From NCBI GenBank assembly GCA_001275005.1, contig JWZX01002721.1, positions 1 to 36,583 of the forward strand: a stretch of 36,583 nt of DNA, read 5' to 3'. The notes beneath the pieces are model-generated. The model searched no databases and had not been told where the DNA came from. It was given only the letters and a program-made list of their open reading frames with translations. Shown here in pieces: positions 9,769-20,776 of this stretch; positions within the stretch are counted from its first letter, which is position 1, and each line of letters begins with the position of its first letter. A program made the position numbers and the translations under genes. The stretch is from Chrysochromulina tobinii. Lineage: Eukaryota; Haptophyta; Prymnesiales; Chrysochromulinaceae.

Positions 9769-11481
9769 CTATCGCTTCTTCTTCGCACCCTTCCCGGCGC
9801 TCGCCGGTGCAGCAGCCGCGCCGCCAAAGCCCGCCTTCGGCTTCGCGCCGCCGCCGGCCGCACTTGCGATCTCGGCGCTCGGCGGCGCGATGAGCAGAGC
9901 TTGCTCAGGCTGCCGACGGGACCATCGGATGAGATTGGCGGAGATGCCATCGAGAATGTCCATCTCGTTCATCAGCAGCTCGATGAAGCGCTCGATCTCG
10001 CGCGGAGATCGCGGCCGCTCAGACGCGGCGCGCATGTACATGCGACTCTGCACGCTGAGCACGTCGCGGTGGTGCTGCATGAAGCGGAGCGCTGTGGCGG
10101 GCAGTTGCAGCTCGCGCGCGAGCGAGGCGGCGTCCTTGTCAACCCACCGCGCAGGCTCAGCGACGAGCATGCGTTCGGCGAGCTGGCGACTGATGGCCCC
10201 CTGTAGCTGCGCTTCGACAACCTCGAGAGGGAGCAGCGTCGTCGTGGGCGGCGATGCCGCCGCGCTACCAGCATGCGCAGCGCCCGTGCCAGCCGCGGAC
10301 GCGCCTGCCGCAGCCGGCGCCTGGTCAGCATTGGCCGTGCCGCACAGCAGAGCGAGCTCGGTCGCCGCGAGGAAGCCGACCGGTAGAGATGCATGCAGCA
10401 TCGACCACTCGGGCAACGCCAGCGCCGTGACGGGCGCACCGCCCGCGAGAGTAGCGGGCTGGCCGGCGCGCACGAGCGCGAGCTGGCGTGCATGCGCGTA
10501 CGAGAGGCTCCAAAGGTGCGTGTCGACGCCAACGGTCAGGTGCACCGACGGCTGCTGGGCTGCGATGGCGCCGTGTCGGGCATCCTCGACGGGCTCTAAA
10601 AGGGTGTCAGTCGTGTGTGGCCAGCCGGCCGGAATGTAGAGCACCTGTCCGGGCTCCATGATGGTATCGAGTACGAGGGCATCCGGATCGGCCGTCATCA
10701 GGTCCGTGCCCTTGCCGCGTGCGAACGGGTCCATCGCCGGGGCCCTCTCTGGTGGGGGAGGCCGGTACACGCGCCAGCGCTTGCGGCCGGTCGTCTGGAC
10801 GAGCAGCACGTCCTGCTGATCGGTGTGCAGCTGGGTTGAGGTGGACAGCCCGGGTTTGGAGAGGTACACGTTCATCCAGATGGGCAGGCTCGTCACCTCG
10901 AGCATGGCGCGCGAGATCGCCGCGAGCTTTGGCACACAGAAGCCCGCGTTGAGCATCACGACCGTCGCCTCATCCATCCTTGCGTCCACGTCGGCAAATG
11001 TGAAGCCCGGCTGGAAGGGCTTATTGTAGATGCCGCCCTGGTGGCGCACGCCGCTCGCGACGAATTGCGGCGGAAGCCGCTGCACGTCGCGCTCGACGTC
11101 CTCCATGGTGAACGAGCCGATGGCAAACGGCCAGAGCTCGTCGAGCTTGAATGCCGCCTTGCCAAAGCCCTCCTTGAGGAAGGCGGCGTTGGTAGCGAGC
11201 GCACGGAAGGCGTGGCGCCACGGTGCATCCGCGATCGTTCCTGTGCTCACGCGCTCCGCCAGATCGAAGGCGGCGGATGACGGCGGCGGCACCGCGCGGA
11301 TGGCACTGAGATAGCGCGCGCCTTCGTCGGCGGGTGTGGCGAGCGATGCCGAAGGAGTTGTTGCTACTTGCATGGCCTCGCTAGCTCGGGCCGCACATGA
11401 GAAGACCAAGGCACGAGAGTTGCTGATGGGCAGCAGTCGGCCATCAGTGTGGAGCGCCGCGAGGCAGGACGCGAGGAACAT
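9769..11481 (-). CDS. JmjC/cupin-8 type Fe(II)/2-oxoglutarate oxygenase
   Basis: A 570-residue intronless protein. The double-stranded beta-helix core spans residues about 195-330: the iron ligands are H219 and D221 in QLHTDQQDV and H289 in YIPAGWPHTT. Between them lies TGRKRWRVYRPP, and 2-oxoglutarate would be held by residues on the strand following HTD. The layout is that of JmjC hydroxylases of the MINA53/NO66 ribosomal-oxygenase and cupin_4/8 groups, which hydroxylate proteins; the substrate is not deducible. A helical C-terminal region (residues 400-540) could be a dimerisation or winged-helix part. The protein ends in Gly/Ala-rich sequence and GKGAKKKR, a possible nuclear/nucleolar signal. 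The first 30 residues are hydrophobic with Cys/Ala and could instead be an organellar leader; an alternative start is the Met at residue 37. It is divergent from the channel gene at 12014. Confidence 0.85.
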   Translation of the reverse strand: MFLASCLAALHTDGRLLPISNSRALVFSCAARASEAMQVATTPSASLATPADEGARYLSAIRAVPPPSSAAFDLAERVSTGTIADAPWRHAFRALATNAAFLKEGFGKAAFKLDELWPFAIGSFTMEDVERDVQRLPPQFVASGVRHQGGIYNKPFQPGFTFADVDARMDEATVVMLNAGFCVPKLAAISRAMLEVTSLPIWMNVYLSKPGLSTSTQLHTDQQDVLLVQTTGRKRWRVYRPPPPERAPAMDPFARGKGTDLMTADPDALVLDTIMEPGQVLYIPAGWPHTTDTLLEPVEDARHGAIAAQQPSVHLTVGVDTHLWSLSYAHARQLALVRAGQPATLAGGAPVTALALPEWSMLHASLPVGFLAATELALLCGTANADQAPAAAGASAAGTGAAHAGSAAASPPTTTLLPLEVVEAQLQGAISRQLAERMLVAEPARWVDKDAASLARELQLPATALRFMQHHRDVLSVQSRMYMRAASERPRSPREIERFIELLMNEMDILDGISANLIRWSRRQPEQALLIAPPSAEIASAAGGGAKPKAGFGGAAAAPASAGKGAKKKR

Positions 11482-12013
11482 GGGAGCCGGAGTGGGCCGC
11501 CGTAACTTGGACTTTCATACATTCTGTATTCACACCAACACATGCTGAAAAAAAAACAAAAAAAAGCAAGTCCTCGACTCCACCAATATGACAGTACGTA
11601 GAACGCAATCTCAAATCCATGATCAATACATGTCGTCGTGAAGGACAACAATGCAGGCAATGCTCGTGTTGCAGCTCGTCGTGTAGGACCGGGGTGCGAC
11701 TGATTGATGGACTGAAAATCCTGGTTGTGTTTTACGCCTCGGCTTACGCGCCAAAGTAAGACCGGTCAAAAGACACCGGGGGGAGCCGGGACACACGGGA
11801 CACGCGGCAATTGACACGCGGGCGCACAAAGGCACACGGACCTCACAGACGAACCTCACCACCATCCATCCAAACCCACCAACCAAGTAAGACCGGTACA
11901 TGTACAAGTACAATTGTCCGTTCCGACTGGCGGACTGGGTGTGTTTTTGAACCGTGTCCCGTGATATTTTTGGGCGCTGCCAAAAAATTCGCGAATTTGA
12001 CACACGGACGCAC
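11482..12013. promoter_or_regulatory. Divergent promoter region with repeats
   Basis: It separates the JmjC gene (minus) from the channel gene (plus). Contents: an A-rich run (11549-11569), AAGTAAGACCGGT twice (11754-11766 and 11885-11897), a 28-bp segment (11768-11795) whose reverse complement recurs exactly at 29898-29925, and the near-palindromic GGTACATGTACAAGTACAA after 11895. No gene was found. The coding start is placed at ATG 12014 (CACATGGCC) because the open frame before it has no other ATG. Confidence 0.5.
11768..11795 (-). repeat. 28-bp dispersed repeat, copy 1
   Basis: This is the exact reverse complement of 29898-29925; the core reads CCGGCTCCCCCCGGTGTC on the minus strand. Both copies lie in short divergent intergenic regions about 18 kb apart. 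Confidence 0.9.
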
Positions 12014-15000
12014 ATGGCCGAGTCCTCTAGAAATGGCCGTGCACGCACGACTCCTTCCTCGCCGCCGCCGTCCACCCTGGGTCACCTGGACGATCGGAGG
12101 AATTCCGCTCAAAATCTGAGGAACCCTGTGCGCACAGGGTCGGCTCCAGCGCGCATGACTCCCTCCTCGCCGCTGGCAGAGCGACGCTCCCCAATGGACG
12201 AGTCATCTACTAGAATCCCTCGGGAGTCCCAATCGCCTCTGATTCCCACGTCTGGCGGTGCTCCAGCGATCGAAGCGATCGAAGCGACTCCCTCCTCGGT
12301 TGCTGGCAGTTTGCCGTCGCAAGACGTGCATGTGGCCCACGAGAGCGCAAAGCGGAATCCACTCAACGACTGGTCGAAGGACAAGGTGGAGAAATGGCTC
12401 AAGGGCATCGACCCAAAGATCGCGAAGGCAGCCAAGGCGGCGGGCGTGAATGGGCGTGTCCTTCAAGAACTCGACGCTCTTGCCTGGACTGAGCTTGGCG
12501 TCACCGTTGCTCTTCGCCGCAGCCAGTTGGTAGCCGCGATGAAATTGGCGGAGGAAGGTATTCCGTCCGAGGACACCGCGCCTTCGAGTACGCCAAGCTC
12601 GTCCCCGATGAGCCATCTCACCCCCGAAGAGGAGGAGGAGCTGAGGCGACTCGAAGACTGGAAGAAGGGGCTCGATGCGGGCGACAAGCAGGCCGCGGAG
12701 GCTGCGAAGAAGGCCGACGAGGCCGCGGAGGCCAAGAAGAAGGCACAGAAGGAGGCCAAGAAGAAGGCCGACATGGAGGCCGCAAAGGCAGAAGCCAAGA
12801 AGCCCCCGGCCACAAAGAAGGCGGAGAAGGAGGCAGCGGAGATTGCCGAGCGCATCGCGGACCTCAAGCGCCATCGGATCCAAATCCGCTGCGCCATCCA
12901 AAACCTGAACCCCCACGACTTTGCGAAAAGTCAGACCTTTGAGGCGCTCATCAAGTTCGAGGCCTCGTGGGAGGACCGCTCGCCCATCCTGTATGAGATG
13001 CTGGCGGCGGGTTATAAGCTGGGCGACCGGATCGTAGAAAAAAAATGCACCTACAACAAGTTCGTAATCCTGCAGCACGACGGCAGCGAGAACAGCGAGC
13101 TCTTCACGCCGCGCATCACCTTCAAGAACCGCGCGAAGGAGCCCAAGACCAAGGAGGAGTTGTACGTAGCCGAGTTGCCTCTGATGACCACTGATAGCCT
13201 CCCTGATGACCAATGATGACCTCCCTCATCAGCTACGATCTCTCCAAATGGACGGTGGACGAGCCGACGGTGAAATGGAGATCAATCTTTCAGGGTGCGT
13301 TAACCTGCGCGAGGCCTCTGATTGACCTCTGATTGACTTCTGTTGACCTCTGATTGACTTCTGTTGACCTCTGATTGACCTACGATACCTCTCTCATCAG
13401 GAGTCTTCAACATGCGCGAGGCCTCGTTACGCAAGTTCCCGATAGACGAGCAGATGCTCACGATCGAGGTACGAACTCGGCGACTTGATGTCTCTGATGA
13501 CCTCTGATGACCTCTGATGATCTTCCTCATCAGGTACAGGCGGGCTGGCCCATGAACAAGGAGTCTGCGCCGGCCGACGAGCAGCAGCCGCCGCCTTGGA
13601 AGCTCTATGGGGTTAAGCTGCAGAAGCATAGTGGTGGTAAGGTCGAGGACAAGAGCGTCGTCTCGGTCGGCTCGCAGGTACCTATCCTGATGGCCATTGA
13701 TGGCCACTGAGACCACTGATGACCCCCATTGACGAAGTCGTCTTGGTCGGCTCGCAGAGTTTCGCGATGATGAATGGGTACCGGCTGTCCAAAGGCGTCT
13801 TCTTCGACGCCCGAAAGACCGATAAGGTGAGTGCCACTGATGACCACTGATGACCCCTGATGACCACTAATGACCCCTGATGACTTCACATTCACCAATG
13901 TCTTCTTTTACAGGGAGACTCCACCTCATGTGCTGAGTTCTCGGTCCTTAAAATCTCGGTGCACGTGCGCCGCAAGGTAAGTGCCACTGTTGACCACTGA
14001 TGACCCCTGATGACCACTGGTCAGTTCACGTTCCCCGACGTCTTCTTTCGCAGTCGGGCTTCTGGATCAACAACGTCGTCCTACCCTGCTGGATCATCAC
14101 CAGTAGCCTCCTCAGCTCATACGGCCAGAGCATCCGGAGTGGCGACCGCCTCAATGTCTCCGTGACTGTGCTGCTCACGCTCACGACCTTCAGATTCCTC
14201 GTCGCAAAGAAGCTCCCCGACGTTGACTACATGACCCTCATGTGCGACAATACGCCATAGCGCATCTCTTTCGCCGCCCAGATTGCAATGATTGCATTGC
14301 CTCACGTCTTGGCTCTCCTATTCATACATGCTCGCCTCTGTCGACCGCTGCCGCGCGCCCTCGGCGTTCGGCTCGGCACACGTACTCGCAGTGACTGGTA
14401 CGTGTTCTCGTCCTTCCTCTTTTCATTCAGCATCATCTTTATCCAGGTGAGTGCCACTTATGGCCACTTATGGCCACTGATGACCACTGATGACCACTGA
14501 TGACCACTTATGGCCACTGATGCCCGCTGATGACTTCACGTTCCCCGACGTCTTCTTCCACAGACGCTCACGGAGCTGGGCTTGTACGACGAGGACGCTG
14601 GAGCGTTTCGGTGGCGTGGATGGCGCGCCGCCCTTTCAGGCGCCGGCCTCTTAGGCAACGCGTCAGGCTCCGCGCTCTTTGGCAACGCGTCGACGGCGTC
14701 GCGGGCGCCGGGCCAGCCAAGCTGGGCAGAGGACGAGGACACCATCGTTCTTCCCGCCCCTCTTGTTTACGGACTTGGATTCTGGTGGGGCTTCCATCTG
14801 GTCGTCATGATCACCTGGTTTGGCTTCCTCATTCGCCGCAGGTTCGTCGACCCTCGCTATCGCGAGGTCCTCGACAAGAGGTGGGGCAAGGACGGCGTCG
14901 ACTGGTACGAGCCAAATTGCTTTTGATTGCCACTGATTGTGCCACTGATGGCCTCTCTGATCACCACTCTGATGGCCTCTCTGATGGCCTGTGATGGCGT

Positions 15001-15263
15001 GCCTCATCAGGGACGAGCCTGAGAGCCTCATCAGCGGGACACTCAACAAGGGGAACACCATGCGCAACCTTTCCAACCAAGTCACGGGGGGGTCGTCGAC
15101 CCAGCTCACCAACTCATGCACCTCGGACACGTCGACGGAGCTGTCGTCCATGGCAACTTGCGACAGCATGCCCAGCATGGCACAATGCCATTCAGTGTCA
15201 AACATAAGTTCTGCGACTGCTATCGCACGAGTGCGCGAAGTTCCGAAGATTAATTGGCTTTAA
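12014..15263 (+). CDS. SAM domain / coiled coil / pentameric ligand-gated ion channel fusion, ten exons
   Basis: Exons 12014-13161, 13233-13294, 13401-13468, 13534-13677, 13758-13826, 13914-13976, 14054-14241, 14392-14446, 14564-14904 and 15011-15263 join in frame to 796 residues; every intron is GT-AG. Order: Ser/Pro-rich leader; SAM domain (about 117-180, DWSKDKVEKWL...GRVLQELDALAWTELGV); Lys/Glu/Ala coiled coil (about 202-290); channel ligand-binding domain (about 289-518) with TFEALIKFEASWED, LFTPRITFKN and FNMREASLRKFPIDEQMLTIE; M1 (522-541); M2 (551-570); M3 (576-599, DYMTLIDWYVFSSFLFSFS); a loop of about 65 residues; M4 (665-690); a Ser/Thr-rich tail. M2 (SGDRLNVSVTVLLTLTTF) matches the nicotinic pattern, with Asp549 at -1', which in known channels favours cations. 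The Cys-loop cysteines are absent, as in prokaryotic and many protist members. No signal peptide precedes the ligand-binding domain. The agonist is unknown. Confidence 0.88.
13162..13232 (+). repeat. Channel intron 1 with CTGATGACC-type decamers
   Basis: A 71-nt intron, donor GTACGT, ending CTCCCTCATCAG. Its interior is degenerate CTGATGACCA / CTGATAGCCT / CTGATGACCA units. The donor at 13162 rather than 13166 is chosen because only it keeps FYDLSKWTVDEPTVKW in frame. Confidence 0.85.
13295..13400 (+). repeat. Channel intron 2 with decamer array
   Basis: A 106-nt intron, donor GTGCGT, ending CTCTCATCAG. It contains repeated CTCTGATTGAC / TTCTGTTGAC units of roughly 10-11 nt, with alternation giving a higher-order period of about 22 nt. 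Confidence 0.9.
13469..13533 (+). repeat. Channel intron 3 with decamer array
   Basis: A 65-nt intron, donor GTACGA, containing three CTCTGATGAC-type units and ending TTCCTCATCAG. The sequence AG|GTAC occurs at both the exon 3/intron and intron/exon 4 boundaries. Confidence 0.88.
13657..13757 (+). repeat. Direct repeat spanning channel intron 4
   Basis: The last 21 nt of exon 4 (13657-13677) recur with one mismatch as the last 21 nt of intron 4 (13737-13757). The 80-nt offset equals the length of the intron (13678-13757). Decamer-like CTGATGGCC / CTGATGACC units lie between. Confidence 0.88.
13827..14053 (+). repeat. Paralogous decamer introns 5 and 6 of the channel gene
   Basis: Intron 5 (13827-13913, 87 nt) and intron 6 (13977-14053, 77 nt) flank the 63-nt exon 6. 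They share their starts (GTGAGTGCCACTGATGACC versus GTAAGTGCCACTGTTGACC), an interior of CACTGATGAC / CCCTGATGAC decamers, and their ends (TTCACATTCACCAATGTCTT... versus TTCACGTTCCCCGACGTCTT..., then TTC-rich tract and CAG). They look like copies of one another. Confidence 0.92.
14242..14391 (+). other. Channel intron 7 (150 nt, atypical, no decamers)
   Basis: Donor GTGCGA, acceptor CTCGCAG. It contains an in-frame TAG at 14258 that would otherwise truncate the channel before M3. Removing it joins YMTL-I-DWYVFSSFLF, a textbook start of M3, which is why I prefer splicing over a broken gene. Unlike its neighbours it lacks the decamer array. Confidence 0.85.
14447..14563 (+). repeat. Channel intron 8 with nine or so decamers
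   Basis: A 117-nt intron starting GTGAGTGCCACTTATGGCC, then CACTTATGGC / CACTGATGAC decamers in near-perfect 10-nt register, then an end nearly identical to intron 6 (TTCACGTTCCCCGACGTCTT and CACAG). It is the longest array of the intron 5/6/8 subgroup. Confidence 0.93.
14905..15010 (+). repeat. Channel intron 9 (terminal, possibly retained)
   Basis: Donor GTACGA, interior CTGATTG / CTGATGGCC units, end GCCTCATCAG. Splicing joins TG|G GAC to give W-DEPESLISG and an 85-residue Ser/Thr-rich tail. Retention instead reads WYEPNCF and stops at 14926. Confidence 0.8.
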
Positions 15264-15508: not shown

Positions 15509-17375
15509 CTACACGATGTCCGCAGGCCGTTGACCTGTCGTGGGTCGTTGACCCGCGGGAGGCTGATCGACTTTCTGCACGTCTCTCTGCAGTTTGAGCC
15601 TGTCCTGCTCAAGCCATTGCTTCTTTTTGAGCTCCTGCTCGTGCTCGAGAGCCTTCTTCACCCGCTCAGCCAGCACTTTGAAGTGTCCGGGCGGGCCGGA
15701 GAGCGCAAAGTGCGGGCGCGGCGGCGGCTGGCGCGCGTCGGTGGGCTTTGGCTTCTTGATCTCGGCAAGGTTGATCCTCTTGCCGCCCGCGAGGAGCCGC
15801 GCCTCCTCCATGACATTCTGCTGATCCTTCCACTCGTCGTACTCACGCTTGAGCTTGCGGTACCGGTGCATCTCGGCGAAGTGAAGCGCCTCACGAAGGC
15901 GTAGATCCTCCCGGATCACCTGATGAGGGGTGCAATCAGACGCAATCAGACGCAATCAGACGCAATCAGACGCAATCAGACGCAATCAGACGCAATCAGA
16001 TCACCTTGAGGCGCGCCGCGTGCTCCTTGGAGTCGTTCATTATCGCCGCACTGCGTGAGAGGCCGCGTTCCACCTCCGAGTCGATCCATCTTTGGCACAC
16101 GATCTCGAGATGTGTCGAGATGATGAGCCATCGGCGCCGCCAAGTCGCTTGGATCCGCTTGATGGAGAAGGCGTATCTCAAGATGAGCTTGTGTGGAACC
16201 GAGAGGTCGTCCACCGCCCGCAGCCACTGCGTGAGTACCGTCGAGGCAGCGCGCTTCTGCTTGATGCGCCGGTTGATGCGGTAAAAGTAGAACCGAGCGC
16301 GCAGCAGGCGTCGCACTTTGGTGAGGGCCTTGAGCCGTTTGCGCATCACGTAGATGCGCCACATCATCACGAAAGATTTGGAGGACGCGAGCTTGAGCGC
16401 GAGCTCCTTGCGCCGCAACCGATGGTCCGCGAGCGCGGCGCCCATCCGCGAGGCGGGAACCACGGCACCGACTACCGAGAGCCACGCAGCTTGGCGTAAC
16501 CAAACCTCATGGTTGCGGCGCATGGCCGCTGAGGCGGCGTGCTGTCCGAATCGAAGGCTGATGCTGGCGGCCAGCTCGGCGAACCTCCGCGCCATCTCCT
16601 CGTCACGCCGCTCGAGCACCTCGAGGCTGTGGGCCTTATACCTCTCGTAGCGCGCCTGGCTCTCTTGCCGTCGGTTCTCGAGGAAGTCTGACGACGACAT
16701 GTGGACCGCGGCCACATTCGCTTTCACTAAGGACTGGTCGGGCGCGCGCATGAGCGTGGCCACGTGCTGCGCGAACTGCTCGCGCTTCCAGCCATCCTCG
16801 CGCAGCTCCGCGAGCGTCCTGCGCACGTACAGCTGCGCCTCCGACTTACCTCGATCATGACCTTCCTCGGACCGTGGCACGCGCTTCGGTGGCTCGGAGC
16901 GTTTCTTCGATTTGGGCGTCTTCCCCTTTGCCTCGTCCTCAGCGCGCACCGGTGCCGGCGCCACCGATTTCGACTCCGACGCGCCAGGCTCGCCGTACAC
17001 CCTGGTCGCATCGCGGAGCAGACCCTTGATGTCGTCGAAGATGTCTAGGGTCTGCTCCGCAGCACTGCGTCGTTTCCCAATCGGCGGCAGCGACAAGCCA
17101 CTGCTAGGATCGGACCGAATCTCCGATGAGTTCGGGCTAGAGCCACGTCCTTCCCACGTCGGGCGCTCGGCCTTCTGAAGCTTGTCCATCATGGAGGCGA
17201 CCTGTTGGTTGGCGGCCTTCACCGCCGACGAGAGGGAGCCTCTCGAGTAGAGCACACGCGATTGTGAGGGCAGGGCTGGCAGCGAGGCCGACACGGTGAG
17301 CGAACGCCGACGGACGCCATCTGCCGCGGGTGCTGGAGCCGCCGGCAGCAGTGGCGGCAACACATTGCCGCTCAT
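15509..17375 (-). CDS. Basic helical protein with IQ-like motif, two exons
   Basis: Exon 1 runs 17375 to 16005 and exon 2 runs 15919 to 15509, joined K|VIREDL across an 85-nt GT-AG intron; the product is about 593 residues. An in-frame ATG at 17387 is equally possible. The N-terminal 230 residues are Ser/Pro/Lys-rich and probably disordered. The middle (about 240-460) is strongly helical and basic, with regularly spaced Trp/Arg (WLRQAAWL, MMWRIYVMRKRL, LTQWLRAV) and an IQ-like KRIQATWRRRW, recalling calmodulin- or centrin-binding Sfi1/IQ-type proteins of axonemes and centrioles. Exon 2 adds a charged coiled coil (RYRKLKREYDEWKDQQ) and a second helix (LAERVKKALEHEQELKKKQ). A flagellar or basal-body role is inference only. 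It is convergent with the channel gene and divergent from the TRM1 gene. Confidence 0.68.
15920..16004 (-). repeat. 85-nt intron made almost wholly of a CTGATTGCGT decamer array
   Basis: On the plus strand seven decamers (TGCAATCAGA once, then CGCAATCAGA six times) occupy 15931-16000. On the coding strand the intron reads GTGATCTGATTGCG..., repeats, then CCCCTCATCAG. GTGATC follows AG at both junctions (AAG|GTGATC and CAG|GTGATC). Confidence 0.95.
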
Positions 17376-17728
17376 GCTGGGTCGCATGCTCACGCGAGAG
17401 ACGCGAGAGCGAAGGCGGACTGCCGTGACCAATCTGTAACCGAATTGTGAACATCGACGGAGCAATGGCTGTGAACGCACGCGACGTTCCGAGAAAACGG
17501 CCAACCGATGGCGGCGCGCACTACTTGTTAACAGTCTTGTGGCCCTCGTGCTTGGGGGTCCGGAGAGTGTGCGCGCGTTGTGTTGAACAGCAGCAGTCTT
17601 GTAACGGCCACACCTCCGTCCATAGCGATAGAGGCCCTCGTGCTTGGGGGTCCGGAGGTTGTGCGCGTTGTGTTGAACAGCAGCAGCTTGTAACGTATTA
17701 GACAATTCACCACGCTCACTTCACGCAC
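17376..17728. promoter_or_regulatory. Divergent promoter region with a duplicated ~63-bp block
   Basis: 17541-17605 and 17633-17695 are near-identical (GGCCCTCGTGCTTGGGGGTC ... TTGTGTTGAACAGCAGCAG ... TTGTAACG), 92 bp apart, just upstream of the TRM1 start at 17729 and of the minus-strand gene. The minus-strand frame stays open through it, but the composition is not protein-like and I read it as regulatory or 5' untranslated. Confidence 0.55.
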
Positions 17729-20700
17729 ATGGGGTCGGCGAGGGAGGGCAAAGCCCGCCTACACGTCGACGGCGAGCACTTTTACAACCCCAAGCAGATG
17801 CTGCAGCGAGATCTCTCCGTTCTCGCCTTGCAACAGCACGCAGCGCAGAGCGGCAGTCGGTCGCTAACGCTGCTTGATGCGCTGTGCGGCGGAGGAGTGC
17901 GTGCCATCCGCTACTTACTCGAGGTCGACCATGTGAGCGCGGTGGTCGCCAACGACGTGGACGCGCGCGCGACACGTGCCACGGCTGTGAACGTGGAACT
18001 ATCGCTCGGTCATGAGTTGCGAAGCCAATTCGAGATCTCGCAGCGGCCAGCAGCGGCACTCATGATGGAGCGGCCGCGGCGTTTCGATTGCGTGGAGCTC
18101 GACCCTTGCGGGTCCGTCTCCGAGTACCTGTTGCCAGCGATGCGGTGCCTGTCCAACGGCGGGCTGCTGCTGGCATCGTGCACCGACCTCGGCACGATGA
18201 GCGGTCGATTTGGCGACGCATGCAGCATGCGCTACGGCTCGGTGCCGTTGGCCTCGGCGGCCAAGCAGGCACCCGAGCTGGCTCTACGCATGCTGCTGCA
18301 CTTGGTCATGCGCACCGCGGGCACGCTCGGCCGGCACGCCGAGCCGCTCCTCGGCGTCGTCTTCGCCGACTTTTTCGTGCGAGTCATCGTGCGCGTGCGC
18401 GACGACGACGATGGTGTGAAGGAGATGGCTGACGAGGCAGACGGGGCTGACGGGGCAGACGAGGCAGACGGGGCAGGCGGGGCGGACGAGGCCAAGGACG
18501 CCGCGCCCGAGGCGACGCCGGCGCGCTCGTCGATCGGCTCGTGCAGCGGCCTCCTTGTGCGCTGCTGCGGTTGCGGCACGCTGCACGGGCAGCTGCTGGG
18601 CGGCGAGCAGCGCGTGGGCACGCGCTGCGAGCACTGCGGCAGCTCGCATCTCGAGAGCGGAGGTCCCATCTATCTGGGCGCGAGCTCGGACGCCGGTTTC
18701 GTCAAGGCGCTGCTCGCGCGTCTCGACGCTCCGTCGGCAGGCGCGGCGGCCTTCGGCTCGCATGCGGTGCTGCGCCCGCTGCTGCAGGCACTACTCGCCG
18801 AGGCGATGGCGCCACGCGCCTCATGCGTCGTCCACCTGCCCACATGCTCGCGATGGCTGCACAGCGCGCCGGCGCCGCCGGAGTTCCTATTACGCGGGCT
18901 CGGTGCGGCGGGGCACGCGGCGGTGGTGGCGCACTGGGAGCCGATGGTGATCAAGACGACGGACGCGGGAGCGAGCGCCGCATGGGATTGGCTCGCGGCG
19001 TGGGCGAAGAAGAACCCGCTCGATGCCCGAGACGGCGCCCGGGACAGCGCCCGTGGCGAAGGCGCCGGCGCCGGCGAGAGCGCCGGCGAGGGCGGTGGCG
19101 AGGCGTTCGCCGGGCGAGAGGCGGATGAGACCGACGGCACGCCAGCTGGCTTGTTGCGGCGGCGGCGGCCGTTGGATCCCTTGACGGCAGAGGCTGTACG
19201 AGGAGCTTCGACGCTGCTTGAGCAGAAGCAGAAGCGACGCAAGCTCGCCAGCCAGGCAGCTGCGCGGGAGATGGAGCCGTTAGCACCGGTACTGCCGGGT
19301 ACGGCTCCGGCACTGGCGCCGGCGGCGTCCGAGCTGGAGGCACCCGCCGGCGTTTGCTTTGTGCCGTCGCTCACGCCTGCTGGGCTGCTCGCACCGCCCG
19401 GTACAGCGCCCGCTCGAGCAGCCGGCAGTGCGACGCGTGGCAGTGCAACACGTAGCTGCCACTCCGGCGGCGACTGCCCCTTTCCATTTGCACATGACCG
19501 CCGCGCCGACGCGACGCCCCACGGATGCATCGAGGTCCTCGGCCCGCCCGGCGGCGGCAGCGGCGCAGCAACATCACGCACGTACACGTCACTCGCCGAG
19601 GCGGTCGCGCAGGCCAAGGAGGGCTCGGTGCTGCTGATAGGCCGTGGCGAGTATGAGGTGTCGAGTGCCATTCTCATCAACAGACCACTCGCGCTCTGTG
19701 CGGCGCGCGGCGCGAGACTCCTCGTGCGCGGCCATTCAAGCGCCCTCGTCCTTGACTGGCAGCCACAGCCAGGGGAGCGTGGTGCAGTGGCGGCGATCGG
19801 CGAGGCGATGGCCTTGACGAAACCGGCGATCACGCTCGATGGCCTCGAGATCGTTCAGACGCGCGCCCGAGACGGCCCGTGCGCCCAATCGCCAGCGGAG
19901 GCTGCCGCCGAGGCGGCGACCTGCGAGGCGACCGGTACGGCAGGTAGCCTGGCACAAGCTCCCGCTGCGAATGTGGAAGCGGACGCCTCTGCGGCCGCGG
20001 CGCGCGGTGGCTACGCATTGGTGGTGCGCGGCGCGGCGCGTTGCATGATCCGACACTGCACCATCAGCTCCGAGGTCACAGGTGGCGTCTTCGTGAGCGC
20101 GGGGGCGGCGGCGGAGCTTCACAGCTGCCACGTTCACCGGACGGCGGCCCACGGCGTGCTCGTGAGCGGTCGGGCGTGCGTGACGCTCTCGCACTGCCAC
20201 GTCGAGTCGAGCCAGGCCGCGGGCGTCGAGGTGCGTGGCCGGGCGACCGTGCTGCTGCACTGCTGCCGCGTGCATCGCTCGCTGCGCTCGGGCGTCTTCG
20301 TCACGGCCTTTGGCGAATTGCACATTGAATGGTCCAACCTTTTTGGCAACGCCTTCGCGGCGCTTGAGTGTGCGGGCGAGGCGGAGGCGCACGTGCTGAG
20401 CTGCCGCATCCACCACGGCCAGCGCGGTGGCGTGATGGCGCTCGGTCGAGCCCGCCTGACCATGCGCGACTGCACCGTCGACAAGAACTCGATGGCCGGC
20501 GTGAGCGTACGGGGCACGGCGAGCGCAGCGCTAGTGGGCAACACGGTCACGAATGGTCGCGCGAGCGGCGTGTACGTGAGCGAGAGCGCCTCGGCGGAGG
20601 TGAGCGACAACCTCATCCGCGGCAACCAGCTGTGCGGGCTCGAGCTCGACGGCGCAGGCGCGACACTCGTCGCGCGGCGCAACAAGCTCGGCGGCAATCT

Positions 20701-20776
20701 CGACGCAATGAGCGTGCCCGCGGAGGGCGGGCGGATGCGCGGGTGCGTGTTCGAGGATAATGTGGTATCCGGATAG
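17729..20776 (+). CDS. TRM1 tRNA (guanine26-N2)-dimethyltransferase fused to a right-handed beta-helix
   Basis: One uninterrupted frame of 1015 residues. Residues 1-430 are a TRM1 methyltransferase: EGKARLHVDGEHFYNPKQML (6-25) with the family's FYNPKQ...RDLSVL signature, SAM-binding DALCGGGVRAIRY (50-62), ND (75-76), the catalytic-region ELDPCGS (123-129) and SCTDLG (150-155), and a zinc-binding C-x2-C pair near 275-310 ending in GGPIYLG as in TRM1. It would dimethylate G26 of tRNA using S-adenosylmethionine. Residues about 570-590 resemble a CCCH finger (RSCHSGGDCPFPFAHD), as found near the C-terminus of animal and plant TRM1. Residues about 614-1015 are a separate right-handed beta-helix: a TYTSLAEAVAQAKEGS entry and then about 14 coils of the type GVFVSAGAAAELHSCHVHRT, like FBXO11/CASH repeats. 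Normal TRM1 proteins are 530-720 residues and lack this domain. Confidence 0.88.
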   Translation: MGSAREGKARLHVDGEHFYNPKQMLQRDLSVLALQQHAAQSGSRSLTLLDALCGGGVRAIRYLLEVDHVSAVVANDVDARATRATAVNVELSLGHELRSQFEISQRPAAALMMERPRRFDCVELDPCGSVSEYLLPAMRCLSNGGLLLASCTDLGTMSGRFGDACSMRYGSVPLASAAKQAPELALRMLLHLVMRTAGTLGRHAEPLLGVVFADFFVRVIVRVRDDDDGVKEMADEADGADGADEADGAGGADEAKDAAPEATPARSSIGSCSGLLVRCCGCGTLHGQLLGGEQRVGTRCEHCGSSHLESGGPIYLGASSDAGFVKALLARLDAPSAGAAAFGSHAVLRPLLQALLAEAMAPRASCVVHLPTCSRWLHSAPAPPEFLLRGLGAAGHAAVVAHWEPMVIKTTDAGASAAWDWLAAWAKKNPLDARDGARDSARGEGAGAGESAGEGGGEAFAGREADETDGTPAGLLRRRRPLDPLTAEAVRGASTLLEQKQKRRKLASQAAAREMEPLAPVLPGTAPALAPAASELEAPAGVCFVPSLTPAGLLAPPGTAPARAAGSATRGSATRSCHSGGDCPFPFAHDRRADATPHGCIEVLGPPGGGSGAATSRTYTSLAEAVAQAKEGSVLLIGRGEYEVSSAILINRPLALCAARGARLLVRGHSSALVLDWQPQPGERGAVAAIGEAMALTKPAITLDGLEIVQTRARDGPCAQSPAEAAAEAATCEATGTAGSLAQAPAANVEADASAAAARGGYALVVRGAARCMIRHCTISSEVTGGVFVSAGAAAELHSCHVHRTAAHGVLVSGRACVTLSHCHVESSQAAGVEVRGRATVLLHCCRVHRSLRSGVFVTAFGELHIEWSNLFGNAFAALECAGEAEAHVLSCRIHHGQRGGVMALGRARLTMRDCTVDKNSMAGVSVRGTASAALVGNTVTNGRASGVYVSESASAEVSDNLIRGNQLCGLELDGAGATLVARRNKLGGNLDAMSVPAEGGRMRGCVFEDNVVSG

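Follow-up and report, generated by a model that had tools for sequence, protein, structure and literature searches.

The window analysed here is the whole 36,583-nucleotide (nt) stretch of Chrysochromulina tobinii contig JWZX01002721.1 (positions 1 to 36,583, forward strand), and our subject is a gene on its + strand, at 12014-15263, that encodes a predicted subunit of a pentameric ligand-gated ion channel (pLGIC) with an N-terminal SAM domain. The gene begins with an ATG at 12014 and ends with a stop codon at 15261-15263, and removal of nine GT-AG introns leaves 2391 nt, that is, 796 codons and a stop, with no internal stop codons. Re-splicing thus gives a count identical to that of a first-pass annotation, made from the letters alone, which had described a single gene of 796 residues with nine GT-AG introns, a SAM domain and a complete pLGIC. 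The parts of the gene, including the ligand-binding domain (LBD) and the transmembrane (TM) segments M1 to M4, are as follows (basis of each assignment in brackets).

12014-13161, + strand: exon 1, with a Ser/Pro/Arg-rich N-terminus, the SAM domain, a Lys/Glu helix and the first ~96 LBD residues (splicing)
12356-12559, + strand: SAM domain, residues 115-182 (weak Pfam match, a hidden Markov model (HMM) of SAM domains from the genome, homologues)
12617-12871, + strand: Lys/Glu/Ala-rich helix, residues 202-286, a variable spacer resembling a single alpha-helix (composition, a/d register)
12872-13976, + strand: Cys-less pLGIC LBD, residues 287-518, with Pro-loop FPID at residues 416-419, split by introns 1-5 (splicing, motifs)
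13162-13232, 13295-13400, 13469-13533, 13678-13757 and 13827-13913, + strand: introns 1-5 (GT...AG each)
13233-13294, + strand: exon 2 (splicing)
13401-13468, + strand: exon 3, with the Pro-loop FPID (splicing)
13534-13677, + strand: exon 4 (splicing)
13758-13826, + strand: exon 5 (splicing)
13914-13976, + strand: exon 6, ending in the pre-M1 arginines (splicing)
13977-14053, 14447-14563 and 14905-15010, + strand: introns 6, 8 and 9 (GT...AG each)
14054-14241, + strand: exon 7, with M1 (14057-14125), M2 (14147-14206) and the start of the M2-M3 loop (splicing, hydropathy)
14242-14391, + strand: intron 7, 150 nt, which takes out an in-frame TAG at 14258 (splicing; homologue P0001 diverges at the same place)
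14392-14446, + strand: exon 8, with the rest of the M2-M3 loop and the larger part of M3 (splicing, hydropathy)
14564-14904, + strand: exon 9, with the end of M3, an acidic M3-M4 loop, M4 (14765-14833) and the Arg-rich beginning of the C-tail (splicing)
14657-14692, + strand: N-glycosylation sequons NASG and NAST, both within the M3-M4 loop (sequence motif)
15011-15263, + strand: exon 10, with a Ser/Thr-rich C-tail and the stop codon (splicing)

A splice with eight introns, which would leave the gene possibly broken by an in-frame TAG at 14258-14260, was considered and is ruled out by the ninth intron (14242-14391), removal of which brings back KKLPDVDYMTLIDWYV, as expected for the M2-M3 loop and the beginning of M3. 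Homologue P0001 diverges from the rest of its family exactly after YMTLM and continues in unrelated sequence, as expected if an intron sits at the same place. Exon 1 encodes the SAM domain, the Lys/Glu helix and ~96 of the ~232 LBD residues (~40%) with no intron between them, so that splicing is unable to part the SAM domain from the start of the LBD. Upstream of the gene, an in-frame stop is present at 11948-11950, and the frame opens at 11951. At the level of sequence, the SAM-pLGIC fusion is established.

The channel part was compared with four of the superfamily features listed in PMC4795631 (Jaiteh, Taly and Henin 2016), namely the Pro-loop, the pre-M1 Arg, the M1 Pro and the M2-M3 Pro. 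Each is present: the Pro-loop motif F/YPxD as FPID at residue 416, the pre-M1 Arg in HVRRK (514), the M1 Pro in VVLPCW (526) and the M2-M3 Pro in KKLPDVDY (570). Four hydropathy peaks lie past residue 519 and none ahead of it, in agreement with four TM helices that follow an LBD of ~200-230 residues. In Cys-loop receptors, two cysteines 13 residues apart flank the Pro-loop; no Cys is present around REASLRKFPIDEQML in the window protein. A five-sequence family profile matches nicotinic acetylcholine receptor and GABA-A subunit structures in the TM region (best E 2e-9). With Pfam models, a scan of an earlier 846-residue gene model gave a Neur_chan_memb match of 6e-5, which falls short of the cut-off for that model, and nothing for the LBD. 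M2, as we read the sequence, has Asp at -1', Arg at 0' and Leu at 9', from which the pore is probably cation-selective. The window protein is, on these features, a subunit of a predicted Cys-less pentameric channel, or Pro-loop receptor, with a SAM domain at its N-terminus.

The SAM assignment rests on homologues and on a genome-specific HMM, since the match of the window sequence to Pfam, being below cut-off, is insufficient. In particular, the isolated segment matches SAM_1 with E 0.042 and 14.6 bits (cut-off 23), the whole protein in its 846-residue version gives no SAM match at E <= 1, and the domain is not recovered when the whole genome is searched with SAM_1 and SAM_2 at E <= 1. The domain is nonetheless recognised by Pfam in relatives, the SAM_2 cut-off of 20.5 being passed by three of the 17 homologues scanned: P0002 (23.4), P0003 (21.0) and P0027 (20.6). 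With an HMM built from 15 SAM domains of the same genome, the window domain scores 21.3 bits, and all 17 pLGIC segments scored reach 10.5-37.1 bits, against a best score of 8.3 among 3400 shuffles of them; the lowest, P0009 (10.5 bits, E 0.11), is not significant by itself. Profile-profile comparison assigns SAM with 97% probability to the window family and with 95% to a second family, that of locus C2146 described below, where the alignment covers the C-terminal 70% only. Conserved D/W/E/L/G and Arg positions suggest a putative role in SAM polymerisation or partner binding.

Between the SAM domain and the LBD, the first-pass annotation had placed a coiled coil of ~90 residues; we find no hydrophobic a/d heptad there, strong hydrophobics making up 16% at most in the best a/d register of residues 202-286. 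Instead, this stretch consists of 27% K/R, 26% D/E and 26% Ala, and is mildly enriched in opposite-charge pairs at i,i+4 (17, compared with a mean of 11.5 and a maximum of 19 in 1000 shuffles). By eye, it is missing in P0001, P0002, P0003, P0028 and P0030, and P0009 has a charged helix ahead of the SAM domain in its place. By composition and distribution, the Lys/Glu stretch is a variable, non-conserved spacer resembling a single alpha-helix.

We searched 5.8 billion proteins with the channel part of the window protein, which returned 17 matches, and with the family profile, which returned 28 among the 8000 best candidates that were scored; together, the searches yielded at least 28 distinct entries. 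The SAM domain precedes the LBD in homologues at 62, 52 and 36% identity. Among the 18 of 28 entries inspected by eye, a SAM domain is present in 17 (all but P0010), and the start of the LBD likewise in 17 (all but P0037). SAM, LBD and TM segments occur within one predicted protein in P0001, P0009 and P0028, the last two of which extend to M4, with an apparently shortened M2-M3 loop in P0009. A precomputed C2 domain is annotated in five homologue entries (P0005-P0008 and P0011), metagenome variants among them; it sits ahead of the SAM domain in P0005 and P0011, both of which we scanned (E 4e-18 and 3e-17). The C2 domain of P0011 is 93% identical to one encoded at C608:17760-18227 in the window's own genome (G000), suggesting that C2 was probably shuffled in recently; the C608 gene differs in having an EF-hand-like sequence (by eye) behind its C2 domain rather than SAM and a channel. 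At the window gene itself, a search for C2 gave no match, and no relative was found in the viral contigs scanned. In P0010, half of the LBD follows a sequence that by eye resembles a bacterial ABC transporter ATP-binding protein, so that this entry may be a contig chimera or an unusual fusion.

The same genome has 14 pLGIC places at E <= 0.05, of which C1335 is identical to C730a, leaving 13 distinct loci. The identical frames at C730 and C1335, of 498 codons each, are probably two haplotypes or a duplicated contig. At C2146:49712-51391, an intronless 560-codon pLGIC frame has a SAM-like domain immediately ahead of the LBD, and the SAM-like region is present in seven homologues aligned to it (P0026 loosely), including P0021 from the MMETSP transcript set. 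An approximate tree built from the LBD through M3 places the C971/C2162 pair (support 0.96), where no SAM domain was seen, as sister to the window family (0.99), and puts the C2146 family (1.00) elsewhere; the N-terminus could not be resolved at C971, C1216, C1153 and C2189. From this placement, SAM probably became joined to pLGICs on at least two occasions, with repeated loss as the alternative. A further combination is present at locus L045 (C781, 713-4474), where a 1253-codon frame comprises a pLGIC, a long linker and, past M4, a C-terminal PARP catalytic domain (PF00644, 4e-10).

Shank-type SAM scaffolds and STIM1 resemble the window protein in having a SAM domain, which serves clustering or docking in signalling; we know of no pLGIC among such SAM scaffolds. 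The first-pass annotation knew of no described SAM-pLGIC fusion, and we also found none, nor an inverted pLGIC, among the matches listed from the open-access literature, a coverage that leaves out most subscription journals and makes novelty provisional. Among the closest precedents is PMC4795631, which reports Cys-less eukaryotic Pro-loop receptors in protists, including the haptophyte Emiliania, that share with the window protein the Pro-loop F/YPxD, pre-M1 Arg, M1 Pro, M2-M3 Pro and lack of Cys-loop cysteines. In that study, termini were dropped before alignment and domain architectures were left for later work, and in its available portion there is no description of a fusion to SAM or C2, of a lacking signal peptide or of an inverted channel. 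The bacterial pLGIC DeCLIC, according to the available part of PMC9897478, has an extra domain N-terminal to the LBD, as does the window protein.

The first-pass annotation had also reported that no signal peptide or extra TM segment separates the N-terminal modules from the LBD, and had offered three explanations: an unusual topology, an upstream exon supplying a signal, or an organelle membrane. Our analysis agrees on the missing segment. Specifically, no hydrophobic segment occurs in residues 1-286 as encoded by the exons seen (best 12-mer 1.43 by hydropathy), and no hydropathy peak precedes residue 519. The best 12-mer before the LBD is at most 1.81 in 15/15 algal proteins and at least 2.39 in 7/7 bacterial pLGICs. 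The charge pattern also differs between algal and bacterial proteins. With the LBD side defined as the 15 residues before M1, the M2-M3 loop and the 15 residues after M4, K/R density is greater on the LBD side than on the other side in 17/19 algal and in 0/6 bacterial proteins. Taken as a whole, the M3-M4 loop carries a net negative charge in 16/19 algal and 0/6 bacterial proteins, at -3 in the window protein and 0 to +3 in the six bacterial controls. All six members of the C730/C781 family have cysteines in this loop, six each in five members and five in the remaining one, as would fit a position on an oxidising side, and the PARP domain after M4 at C781 would need cytosolic NAD. Sequons are present on both sides and so decide little: the window protein has two in its M3-M4 loop and none in the 519 residues before M1, and the 19 algal proteins together have six in 777 M3-M4 residues.

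An upstream exon with a signal is disfavoured, because the N-terminus varies (it holds a C2 domain in P0005 and P0011 and is almost absent in P0001), because of the in-frame stop ahead of the gene, and because P0021, of the second SAM family and from MMETSP, also has no hydrophobic segment before its LBD. Of the three explanations, an unusual topology is the best supported. Mainly because of the absent signal peptide, the distribution of K/R, the net acidic charge of the M3-M4 loop and the variants with C2, we consider it slightly more probable than not that the window channel is inverted, with the N-terminus, the LBD and the C-tail in the cytosol.

An inverted channel could be made and could work as follows. 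Lacking a signal peptide, the SAM domain and LBD would be completed in the cytosol, and M1, as the first helix inserted, would begin membrane insertion with the N-terminus remaining inside. The pentamer would then stand upside-down, with its SAM domains, LBD, C-tail and M2-M3 loop on the cytosolic side and the M3-M4 loop facing the outside or a lumen. The LBD would sense an intracellular ligand and gate a probably cation-selective pore, and the five SAM domains may dock to, or polymerise with, other SAM proteins, by which the channel would become clustered or anchored. In the C2-SAM variants, calcium and anionic lipid could provide a second switch through calcium-dependent membrane contact.

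The reading may extend beyond the window. We tentatively suggest, on a balance that falls just short of even, that a set of eukaryotic pLGICs is upside-down, with a cytosolic LBD, with attached cytosolic modules (SAM on at least two occasions, C2 ahead of SAM, perhaps a C-terminal PARP) and with an intracellular ligand gating ion flow. The PARP fusion is suggestive only as evidence on topology, given that C1706, the nearest relative of C781, ends right after M4 without a PARP domain. To our knowledge, no pLGIC is known whose LBD is cytosolic. Textbooks present pLGICs as extracellular receptors; if the suggestion is true, the same fold can operate from the opposite membrane face, and what pLGICs do in single-celled eukaryotes, so far unexplained, becomes testable. 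Even under canonical topology, a SAM-pLGIC fusion that has probably arisen twice would be a new domain architecture.

Canonical topology is the rival that survives best, and we regard it as unlikely. The N-terminal half would be translocated, with M1 acting as a reverse signal anchor or with a signal peptide on an unseen exon, and the SAM domain and LBD would lie outside or in a lumen, where SAM would oligomerise. Every pLGIC of known topology has an extracellular or periplasmic LBD, and the bacterial relatives carry the signal-peptide-like segment described above. SAM domains can also lie outside the cytosol, as does the EF-SAM of STIM1 in the lumen of the endoplasmic reticulum. The extra domain of DeCLIC is reportedly periplasmic and is not a SAM domain, whereas the window protein has SAM without a signal-peptide-like segment.

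Several further points weigh against inversion. The sequons of the 19 algal proteins include 15 in 5666 pre-M1 residues (five of them in P0009) and seven in C-tails, and two lie in the window protein's own C-tail. The pattern of K/R density is reversed in C2146 and P0020, and an Arg before M1 is a superfamily feature under any topology. Without the pre-M1 stretch, raw K/R favours the LBD side in 10, 12 and 12 of the 19 algal proteins, and the other side in 6, 3 and 5, at flanks of 8, 15 and 25, respectively; the LBD side is favoured in 0/6 bacterial proteins by the same measure. Bacterial C-tails are only 0-6 residues long, so that part of the K/R difference is due to the algal C-tail existing at all. 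At each of the three flanks, net charge is more positive on the LBD side in 19/19 algal proteins; the same holds for 3, 4 and 3 of the 6 bacterial proteins, and per residue for up to 5/6, an overlap by which net charge does not discriminate. The topology controls are bacterial pLGICs only, and few (seven for the signal peptide, six for charge), and the proteins are related rather than independent. The signal-peptide test used hydropathy rather than a trained predictor and covered 15 of the 19 algal proteins (all but C2162, C2189, C1216 and C1153), among which C971 contributed only 19 residues.

Against these points, canonical topology would have to account for a signal-peptide-like segment in 0/15 algal proteins tested, the MMETSP-derived P0021 included, and for 519 pre-M1 residues, a very long tail to translocate without a signal peptide. 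It would also have to place outside the cytosol the C2 and PARP domains, which function in the cytosol, and to accommodate a K/R pattern that is the reverse of that in bacterial pLGICs. We accordingly retain inversion as the preferred reading of the window channel.

Import into an organelle, the third explanation raised in the first-pass annotation, is improbable. The protein would be an inner-membrane channel of the mitochondrion or plastid, with its Arg/Ser-rich N-terminus as a targeting sequence, and residues 1-47 do hold 8 Arg and 3 acidic residues (counted by eye). However, the N-terminus is not conserved, C2 coming first in P0005 and P0011 and SAM lying almost at the start of P0001. It is more doubtful still that the protein is a SAM scaffold that retains the pLGIC fold and no longer conducts: the sequence is divergent and its Pfam scores are under cut-off, yet it keeps the Pro-loop, the Arg before M1, the prolines of M1 and of the M2-M3 loop, and Arg 0' and Leu 9' of M2. 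That SAM and channel are separate products wrongly joined by a gene model, derived as it is from genomic sequence, can be set aside as highly improbable, given the shared exon 1 and the single predicted proteins P0001, P0009 and P0028.

Other features of the window and of the genome were recorded alongside the channel gene. Several introns of the gene are packed with short ACTGATGACC-type repeats, which intron 7 does not have, and a tandem GCAATCAGAC repeat is present at about 15924-15999, near the neighbouring gene. Downstream, at 17702-20776 on the + strand, one frame encodes a tRNA N2,N2-dimethylguanosine methyltransferase (TRM, 1.5e-62) fused to a right-handed beta-helix (8.7e-30), and upstream, on the opposite strand at 9769-11514 (-), lies a gene for a JmjC_2/cupin-like protein (1.4e-18). 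Elsewhere in the genome, a long frame that is retroelement-like by eye is present at L017 (C971, 2-3100), directly upstream of the pLGIC gene there, and L021 (C1843) encodes a protein that by eye resembles a Ulp1/SENP-type protease and has a C-terminal SAM domain (SAM_1, 4.7e-13).

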